Positions 33,511-35,655 of a stretch of 64,000 bases of DNA are shown here, piece after piece. Source of the DNA: Nonomuraea jiangxiensis (GTDB lineage: Bacteria; Actinomycetota; Actinomycetes; Streptosporangiales; Streptosporangiaceae). The position numbers were made by a program, and so were the translations under genes. The stretch spans positions 205,320-269,319 of the forward strand of contig NZ_FNDJ01000006.1 of NCBI RefSeq assembly GCF_900099965.1. Direction: 5' to 3'. The notes beneath the pieces are model-generated. The model did no database searches. It was not told the origin of the DNA and saw nothing but the letters and a program-made list of their open reading frames with translations. The stretch's first letter is position 1, and every line of letters starts with the position of its first letter.

Positions 33511-35655
33511 ATGCAACTGACGATCATCGGTGCCGGCGCGATCGGCGGCACGATCGGCGCGCACATGATCCGCGCCGGCCACGACGTGCTGCTCTGCGAC
33601 GCCGACGCGGCGCACGTCGAGGCGATCAACCGGGATGGGCTGTCCATCGAGGGACCGGTCGGAAGTTTCACGGTGGCGGCGCGGGCCGTCACGCCCGACG
33701 AGTTGCCCGACCGCCTGCGCCACGTTGCGATCGCCGTCAAGAGCCACCACACCGTCTCGGCCGCCGAGCTCGTACGCGACCGCCTCGACCCGGACGGCTA
33801 CCTGGTCAGCTTCCAGAACGGCCTGACCGCCGACGCGCTCACGGCCGTGGTCGGCCCTGACCGGCTGCTGGTGAGCTTCGTGAACTTCGGCGCCGACGTG
33901 CTGGGCCCCGGCCGGATCATGCAGGGCAACATCGGCACGTTCCGGGTCGGCGAGCCGACCGGCGGGGAGATCACTCCCCGGGTGCGCGAGCTCGTCGAGG
34001 CCCTCCCGTACGCCGAGGCCACCGGCAACATCATGGGCTTCCTGTGGGGCAAGGAGGCGTACGGCGCGATGCTCTACGCCGGCGCCGTCTCCGATCTGTC
34101 CATCGCCGACTCCCTCGAAGCGCCCGAGTGGCGGCCGCTGATGCTCGCCATCGCGCGGGAGGTGCTCGCGCAGTCGCCGGTCAAGCCCGAGGGGTTCGAC
34201 GGCTTCGAGCCGGACGACCTGGAAGGCTCGCTGGCCCGGCTGGTCGCCTTCAACCGCGGCAGCGCCAAGTCGCACAGCGGCATCTACCGCGACCTGATGG
34301 TCCGCAAGCGCAAGACCGAGGTCGACGACCTGCTGCACGACCTGGCGGGCCCGCTGACGACCTACACCGGCGAGATCATCAAGGCGATCGAGCGCGGGGA
34401 GCGCACCTGCGAGGTGGCCAACCTCGAACTGCTGGCCGCGTACGAGCGGGCCGAGCGGCTCGGCCGCCCGCTGAACGCCGTGGTCGAGCTCTTCCACGCG
34501 CCGCTTCGCACCCCGGGCGGCCCGCTGCACGGCGTGCAGGTCGGGGTCAAGGACATCATCGACATCGCCGGGCACCCGCGCGGCAACGGCAACCCGCATG
34601 CCATGCGCGCCGAGCCGGCCACCGCCGACGCCCCGGTCGTCACGGCGCTGCGCGCGGCCGGCGCGGACGTCTTCGCGGCCACCTCCCTGCTGGAGTACGC
34701 GGCGGGCGCGAACCACCCGGACGTGCCCGAGGCGATGAACCCCTTCAACCCCGCGCGGACCACCGGCGGCTCCAGCGGCGGGTCGGCCGCGCTCGTCGGG
34801 GCGGGCGTCTGCGCGGTGGCGCTGGGCACCGACACCGGCGGCTCCATCCGCATCCCGGCCCACTACTGCGCGACGGTCGGGTTCAAGCCGAGCCACGGCG
34901 CGCTGCCGCTCGACGGCGTCGAGCCGCTCGCGCCCACCCTCGACCACGTCGGACTGCTCGCCCGCGACGTCGCGACCACGACCACGGTCTTCGCCGCGCT
35001 GACCGGCGGCGAGCCCGCCCCGCGGGACGCCGGCGCGCTGCGCGTCGGCGTGGTGCCCGGCCAGCTCGACCGGCCCGAGATGGAGCCGGACGTGACCGCC
35101 GCGATCCGGGCGTCGATCGACGCCCTCCAGGCCGCCGGCTGCTCGATCGTCGAGGTGGACGGCTCGCCCTTCGACGCGCTCGACAAGACCTTCTCCGCGA
35201 TCCTGCTGTTCGAGGCCTGGCGGGCGCACGGCACCCGGGCGAGCACCGATCCCGGCCACTACGGCCCCGAGACGCTGCGGCTGCTGCGCTCGGGCGCGGA
35301 GGTGAGCGAGGACGACTACCGCGCCGCGCTGGCCGAGCGGGAGCGGCTGCTGCCCGCCGTCGCCGAGGTCTACGCCGGCATCGACGTGCTGCTGACCCCG
35401 GCCGCGCCCTTCGTCGCGCCGGTCACGACGCCGCCGGTCGACACTCCCGAGGGCGCCGCCGAGGGCCTGTTCACCGCGGTCCACAATCTCACCGGCGCCC
35501 CGGCGCTGGTGCTGCCCTGCGGCTGGAGCGCCGACGGCCTGCCCATCGGGCTCCAGCTGTCGTCGCCGCGGGGCACCGACCTGCGGCTGCTGGCCATGGC
35601 CGGGTATGTGGAGTCGGCGCTGGCCGTCGAGTCCCGCACTCCCGCCGTCCACTGA
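33511..35655 (+). CDS. Ketopantoate-reductase-like/amidase fusion protein
   Basis: One uninterrupted 714-residue reading frame joins two enzymes. Residues 1-310 match the ApbA/PanE family: GAGAIGG (7-13), KSHHT (77-81), FQNGL (101-105) and a GKEAYGAMLYAG helix with lysine K181. Residues 320-714 are an amidase-signature domain with K347 (VGVKDII), S421/S422 in TTGGSSGGSA and nucleophile S445 in DTGGSIRIPA. The linker is short (about 310-325). ATG follows AGGCGG. A plausible division of labour is hydrolysis of an amide followed by, or preceded by, NAD(P)H reduction of a 2-oxo acid. It is divergent from the peptide importer and followed by an alcohol dehydrogenase. Confidence 0.9.
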   Translation: MQLTIIGAGAIGGTIGAHMIRAGHDVLLCDADAAHVEAINRDGLSIEGPVGSFTVAARAVTPDELPDRLRHVAIAVKSHHTVSAAELVRDRLDPDGYLVSFQNGLTADALTAVVGPDRLLVSFVNFGADVLGPGRIMQGNIGTFRVGEPTGGEITPRVRELVEALPYAEATGNIMGFLWGKEAYGAMLYAGAVSDLSIADSLEAPEWRPLMLAIAREVLAQSPVKPEGFDGFEPDDLEGSLARLVAFNRGSAKSHSGIYRDLMVRKRKTEVDDLLHDLAGPLTTYTGEIIKAIERGERTCEVANLELLAAYERAERLGRPLNAVVELFHAPLRTPGGPLHGVQVGVKDIIDIAGHPRGNGNPHAMRAEPATADAPVVTALRAAGADVFAATSLLEYAAGANHPDVPEAMNPFNPARTTGGSSGGSAALVGAGVCAVALGTDTGGSIRIPAHYCATVGFKPSHGALPLDGVEPLAPTLDHVGLLARDVATTTTVFAALTGGEPAPRDAGALRVGVVPGQLDRPEMEPDVTAAIRASIDALQAAGCSIVEVDGSPFDALDKTFSAILLFEAWRAHGTRASTDPGHYGPETLRLLRSGAEVSEDDYRAALAERERLLPAVAEVYAGIDVLLTPAAPFVAPVTTPPVDTPEGAAEGLFTAVHNLTGAPALVLPCGWSADGLPIGLQLSSPRGTDLRLLAMAGYVESALAVESRTPAVH

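Follow-up and report, generated by a model that had tools for sequence, protein, structure and literature searches.

The window, by which we mean the whole stretch of 64,000 nucleotides of Nonomuraea jiangxiensis DNA that was analysed, carries a gene for a fusion of a ketopantoate-reductase-like (KPR) half and an amidase-signature half at 33511..35655 on the plus strand. According to the list of open reading frames and the translation, its 714 codons are uninterrupted from the start at 33511 to the stop ending at 35655. The opposite strand also holds a long open frame (33496-35727); such frames are common in GC-rich DNA. The fusion gene belongs to a conserved cluster of some 20 genes (14496-36748), at one end of which it lies; eight further putative hydrolase genes are part of this cluster.

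A zinc-binding alcohol dehydrogenase gene (35696..36748, plus strand) is located 40 nt behind the fusion and adjoins it also in 10 named Streptosporangiaceae genomes and one Dormibacterota MAG. On the other side, and on the minus strand, lie the genes of an Opp/Dpp-type ABC importer: an SBP family 5 solute-binding protein (31632..33242), the permeases DppB (30651-31592) and DppC (29788-30654), both named by translation and place, and the Opp/Dpp-type ATPases DppD (28763-29791) and DppF (27720-28934). The minus strand continues with an Asparaginase_2 family gene (26776..27723; closest solved structure glycosylasparaginase), a peptidase M55 of the D-aminopeptidase family (25955..26779), a methylaspartate ammonia-lyase (MAL; 24678..25976; TIGR01502, 556 bits against a cut-off of 286), a class III CoA-transferase (23452..24681) and a MaoC-type hydratase (22958..23455; Pfam MC_hydratase, with NCBIfam RipB/Ich below cut-off). 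A Lrp/AsnC-type regulator follows on the plus strand (22040..22936 as listed, the true start being probably further in). The remaining genes, all on the minus strand, encode a creatininase family protein (21419..22132), a short-chain dehydrogenase (SDR; 20649..21434), an M20 dipeptidase (19274..20674), a protein of the M19 membrane-dipeptidase family (18084..19274), a DUF885 protein (16284..18062), an alpha/beta hydrolase (15404..16267) and a member of the AstE/AspA (succinylglutamate desuccinylase/aspartoacylase) family (14496..15407). The earlier note described the fusion gene as facing a peptide importer, and the gene is indeed divergent from the SBP5 gene; the context is larger, the importer being one part of the cluster.

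The divergent intergenic region (33243..33510) contains a strongly conserved block of about 90 nt (33388-33477), which is 94-97% identical in eight relatives from three other genera, unlike the synonymous sites of the fusion, which differ by about 30% (window versus L039). Little beyond a 15-base core of the block is left in L027 and L028. The block is present as a single copy in the genome, has no Rfam match and showed no RNA fold beyond that of shuffled sequences. It is perhaps a divergent promoter/operator.

Comparison of relative loci revealed that the cluster accompanies the fusion widely. With a threshold of at least 40% identity over 35% of the query, and with flanks of up to about 10 kb on contigs that often end, at least one other cluster gene was found in 40 of 42 relative loci and at least three in 34 of 42. 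The two loci with none at this threshold are L058, at a contig end, and L045, where only short M55- and Asparaginase_2-like pieces are present. In 23 of 40 loci the SBP5 gene lies divergently to the fusion at a distance of up to 2.5 kb; in the other 17 it does not, partly owing to contig ends. The gene order from AstE to SBP5 in L089 and L090 is that of the window, MaoC is in another place in L091, and L092 is without MaoC and Asparaginase_2; in this comparison of L089-L092 the identities were 65-97%, and M19, DppC and M55 were found by direct tblastn in all four. Among the 33 scan loci L026-L058 the genes were represented as DppD (22), M55 (21), SBP5 (21), DppB (21), MAL (19), Asparaginase_2 (19), SDR (13), CoA-transferase (12), Zn-dehydrogenase (12), AstE (7), creatininase (2) and MaoC (1). 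In nine divergent loci the counts were AstE 7, M55 7, Asparaginase_2 7, SBP5 5, MAL 1 and Zn-dehydrogenase 0, and AstE/AspA is placed directly behind the fusion in seven divergent relatives. The importer, M55 and Asparaginase_2 are the steadiest partners of the fusion, and the methylaspartate branch is found in part of the family.

Behind the cluster lies a formate-dehydrogenase-like set (36898-41695) with 2Fe-2S thioredoxin-like, NuoF-like and large molybdopterin-type subunits, the last recognised by eye. That the fusion belongs with this set, in formaldehyde or formate oxidation, and not with the peptide cluster, would agree with the position of the set and with the matches of the Zn-dehydrogenase to formaldehyde dehydrogenase models among others, all below their cut-offs. 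However, the ORFs of the set had no match passing the filter in 45 relative loci (L017-L061), where the peptide cluster is retained, and we regard this assignment as extremely improbable.

Domains and active-site residues of the fusion protein

Pfam analysis placed ApbA at residues 4-149 (1.4e-27) and Amidase at residues 334-694 (2.5e-72, 244.8 bits against a cut-off of 27). The AlphaFold2 model of the whole chain, built with 39 aligned family members, reached a pLDDT of 92.4 and a pTM of 0.90; a separate model of the KPR half, from 28 aligned sequences, had a pLDDT of 94.1. The KPR half was folded separately because a fold search with the whole model gave amidases only among the matches listed. 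Residues 1-299 of the model matched residues 1-300 of the ketopantoate reductase 5ayv (Z 33.5, 27% identity), and the D-mandelate dehydrogenase 5x20 was also matched (Z 31.0). Residues 299-706 matched residues 14-412 of malonamidase E2 (Z 53, 33-34% identity). Judged by these predicted structures, both halves are complete domains, which puts the junction at about residue 299. The short linker suggested in the earlier note is absent: the halves abut there, a short loop joining helix 281-294 to helix 302-321. The KPR half thus covers residues 1 to about 298 (33511..34404, plus strand) and the amidase half residues about 299-714 (34405..35652, plus strand).

Analysis of 39 aligned sequences revealed invariant residues (39/39) both in the KPR half (Asn103, Lys181, Gly185, Asp261 and Glu270) and in the amidase half (Lys347, Ser421, Ser422 and Ser445); Ser256 of the KPR half is present in 38 of 39. 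We take Lys181 and Glu270 to be the catalytic lysine and glutamic acid of ketopantoate reductases, and Lys347, Ser421/Ser422 and Ser445 presumably form the Ser-cisSer-Lys catalytic set of amidase-signature enzymes. The fusion carries the Rossmann motif, the fold and the Lys and Glu of the ketopantoate reductases, together with a full domain and the Ser-cisSer-Lys set of the amidase signature family, so that the description of two domains with active-site motifs in a single frame is borne out.

The KPR half shares the complete fold, Asn103, Lys181 and Glu270 with the PanE/ApbA proteins, including the D-mandelate dehydrogenase members, but it is fused to an amidase and differs at two positions. 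The solved ketopantoate reductases 5ayv and 3hwr have asparagine at both positions matching Gly185 and residue 189, whereas residue 189 in this family is tyrosine (27), phenylalanine (6), alanine (4), tryptophan (1) or serine (1), with Tyr189 in the window. These are the two asparagines of the KxxxNxxxN motif after the catalytic lysine, which we assume to contact pantoate; ketopantoate is therefore unlikely as substrate. The stretch after the Glu270 motif is also about nine residues shorter than in the aligned outgroup KPRs. The score of the fusion with the PanE model TIGR00745 is 112.9 bits, below the curated cut-off of 141.35, and a gene at C23 of the same genome is a better candidate for PanE (201 bits). 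A housekeeping ketopantoate reductase was rejected on the basis of the residues, the cut-off and this candidate. The ketopantoate-reductase-like identity given in the earlier note accordingly stands for the fold, but the protein is not a canonical member.

The amidase half aligns with malonamidase E2 over nearly the whole enzyme and shares the Ser-cisSer-Lys set with it and with other amidase-signature enzymes; it differs from malonamidase E2 in being fused to a reductase and in having Ile448 in place of Arg158. This column, placed by alignment to the R158Q entry 1obk, is occupied by isoleucine (33), leucine (5) or valine (1) in the 39 sequences. As Arg158 presumably binds the substrate carboxylate, malonamate is unlikely as substrate. 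Among the NCBIfam amidase equivalogs and subfamilies the best score was 235 bits against a cut-off of 391, and the best 25 of 49 families were all below cut-off.

The fold also bears on a pantothenate-type catabolism, where the amidase half would cleave a pantothenate-like 2-hydroxyacyl amide and the KPR half would oxidise the freed pantoate to ketopantoate. Such a pairing would give both halves one substrate, the closest fold is that of an archaeal ketopantoate reductase (5ayv), and the better PanE candidate elsewhere in the genome leaves the fused KPR free for another role. Against it stand the replaced asparagine pair and the TIGR00745 score, and a cluster of peptidases with MAL is a poor fit; we consider it very unlikely.

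dN/dS ratios were low in both halves. In the six pairs where dS was not saturated the range was 0.05-0.20 for the KPR half and 0.18-0.29 for the amidase half; dS was saturated in two other pairs. These values suggest purifying selection on both halves, less strict on the amidase half. The faster evolution of the amidase half, together with the loss of either half in some relatives, would agree with only one half being catalytic and the other being kept for structure or regulation. The invariance of the residues of both active sites and the low dN/dS on either side of the junction argue against this, and we consider it unlikely.

Distribution and history of the fusion

Results from searches of related genomes show that the fusion is not an artefactual or assembly join, which is ruled out by fused relatives in other genomes. 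In the order of the window's organism 28 of 345 genomes matched at E<=1e-63; 26 of these have both halves fused in one frame, one (G230) has the KPR half alone and one (G360) the amidase half alone. The fusion in G108 and G135 was seen only in loci L082 and L084. In the scan of genome contigs 30 of 36 loci matched over both halves, with 62-86% identity; over the order and the scan together the range is about 45-86%. The frame of one of the 30 (L055) is broken where the assembly has Ns. The hosts are Planotetraspora, Microbispora, Streptosporangium and MAGs, the labels of the latter including Acidimicrobiaceae, Dormibacterota, Acidobacteria and Spirochaetaceae (labels that may be wrong). Some strains occur in both searches (the coordinates identify G225 with L039 and G337 with L029), so the counts of the searches are not additive. 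The earlier note took PanE/ApbA and amidase domains to be normally separate proteins and proposed to look for others with the same pair; the fusion is a conserved family and not a singleton.

Within the window's genus (54 genomes) the fusion was found at 1e-60 in the own genome only, and G059 of the same genus matched in the amidase part only (42%); a recent gain in this genus is likely. In the phylum sample the KPR half was found at 1e-55 in one of 396 genomes, the own, and the family is therefore patchy. None of the 1355 matching records of the plasmid collection covers 80% of the fusion query.

Phylogenetic analysis was carried out for each half. In the KPR tree the 38 fused rows fall in a group of 42, together with one PanE row and three standalone KPRs, namely L099 (G230), L100 (from the L056 genome) and L080 (G087). 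These standalone KPRs lie inside a 31-row node (100/97), and fused rows lie outside that node as well. The two PanE rows of this tree, including the one among the fused rows, are untrusted, with branch lengths of 10. In the amidase tree all 38 fused rows form a 39-row group (100/100) together with the standalone L083 (G360), which lies inside an 8-row node (100/99). The C-terminal residues of the standalone KPR L099 resemble the start of the amidase. The simplest reading of these sequences is one old fusion with later loss of one half in a few lineages; as the tree roots are midpoints, this is likely but not proved. Not included in the alignment of 39 sequences were L036, which shares its contig with L093, L055 with its Ns, L056-L061, which are partial, unrelated or have the KPR half only, the standalone halves L080, L083 and L099, and the outgroup KPRs; L049 was additionally left out of the trees.

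The single halves are found in the same kind of cluster, the KPR half in L056/L100, L080 and L081/L099 and the amidase half in L083, where it stands directly behind a piece of a cluster-type M19 gene (71% over 119 residues). The L056 genome has the KPR half, and its amidases come no closer than 38%; in G360, where the amidase half is present, no KPR was matched at 1e-10. The completeness of both assemblies is limited or uncertain. The halves are therefore not obligate partners. In G087 a second, related cluster (L080) with standalone KPR (68%), Zn-dehydrogenase, DUF885 and M55 was observed besides the fused copy.

The methylaspartate ammonia-lyase branch

The MAL of the cluster aligns well with the Clostridium enzyme, scores far above the family cut-off and keeps Lys331, His194 and the Mg ligands Asp238, Glu273 and Asp307. 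At the position of Gln329, which according to an excerpt of PMC7241714 contacts the C4 carboxylate, histidine was found in all 25 cluster rows covering the site (some strains twice). Among the MALs of the whole order 17 of 21 have histidine and four have glutamine. The histidine set includes G081, which is without the fusion, and His329 is hence not exclusive to the fusion cluster. Judging from the residue, His329 may point to a changed MAL substrate.

MAL and the fusion family occur together more often than expected: 16 of the 21 MAL genomes lie among the 28 of 345 fusion-family genomes, against 1.7 expected (hypergeometric P 4e-16, relatedness not corrected). The remaining 12 of the 28 are without MAL at 1e-80, so that the enzyme does not depend on the methylaspartate branch.

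As in the MAL route to mesaconyl-CoA of glutamate fermentation and the methylaspartate cycle, genes for MAL, a class III CoA-transferase and a MaoC hydratase lie here in a row. The locus differs from that route in His329, in its linkage to an importer and peptidases and in glutamate mutase E, for which none of the 27 other fusion-family genomes gave a match at 1e-3; the model was silent in the control genomes as well (0/14), so that this result is without a positive control. The own genome has a match below cut-off on another contig (L063; 164 bits against 390). By eye, the L063 match adjoins an acyltransferase-like frame and is possibly part of a natural-product locus. If glutamate mutase is truly absent, the cell would have to obtain methylaspartate or an analogue from its surroundings, which fits the importer.

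Proposed role of the fusion enzyme

Overall, our analysis of the sequences leads us to favour, with moderate confidence, a role of the fusion as a bifunctional catabolic enzyme in a cluster for the use of a peptide-like compound. By analogy with its family, the amidase half would cut an amide bond in the imported compound or in one of its fragments by hydrolysis, with Ser445 as nucleophile and Ser421/422 and Lys347 as relay. The KPR half would interconvert a 2-oxo acid and a 2-hydroxy acid with NAD(P)(H) via Lys181 and Glu270, and the adjoining Zn-dehydrogenase and the SDR may carry out further redox steps. Where the branch is present, MAL could deaminate an aspartate-like product, which would leave as a mesaconyl-type CoA ester via the CoA-transferase and the MaoC hydratase. 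The two halves are probably two steps of one pathway and not one coupled reaction. The earlier note suggested that both activities might act on one N-acyl or amide 2-oxo acid, or on a cyclic amide. The occurrence of relatives with one half only in the same kind of cluster suggests that the two steps are separable and argues against obligate channelling between the sites.

The direction of the pathway could also be the opposite, the cluster serving biosynthesis or self-resistance by processing a peptide that is made and not one that is imported. Many of the hosts are actinomycetes, and hydrolases and dehydrogenases also occur in natural-product clusters. But no peptide synthetase was present among the cluster genes scanned, the importer-type binding protein and the MAL and CoA steps point to breakdown, and the cluster is found also in MAGs labelled Acidimicrobiaceae and Dormibacterota; we therefore consider a biosynthetic role quite unlikely and retain the catabolic one.

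A more specific proposal is offered tentatively, as a possibility to which we give distinctly less credence than to the catabolic role itself. The cluster may encode an undescribed bacterial pathway with the fusion as its signature enzyme. This pathway would import a natural, peptide-like amide in which a 3-methylaspartate-type residue and a hydroxy or keto acid are present. Up to nine hydrolases would dismantle the compound, and the 3-methylaspartate-like residue would be burned via the ammonia-lyase (His329), the CoA-transferase and the hydratase, without glutamate mutase. No functional report on the fusion or the cluster was found in the literature searched (titles and abstract starts of open-licence PMC papers), and no paper supporting a link to microcystin was found in the open-licence PMC literature.

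The fusion is a new architecture made of known families. Two common enzyme families are kept joined in several Streptosporangiaceae genera and in MAGs labelled as other groups, and the fusion marks a large conserved catabolic cluster. Naming the substrate would reveal a nutrient or an antibiotic-like compound eaten by these bacteria, and it would assign activities to proteins for which family models offer no more than the names amidase and ketopantoate reductase.

A second module was found in G023, G334, G160 and G088 (loci L140, L141, L142 and L143), where a MAL with Gln329, a CoA-transferase, a standalone amidase and another Dpp-type importer lie together, with DUF885 in G023, G334 and G160. 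The same gene kinds are placed side by side as in the fusion cluster; the module differs in having no KPR in the stretches read, an amidase that is 34-38% identical and glutamine at position 329 of MAL. This module without KPR constitutes an independent link of this kind of amidase to MAL.
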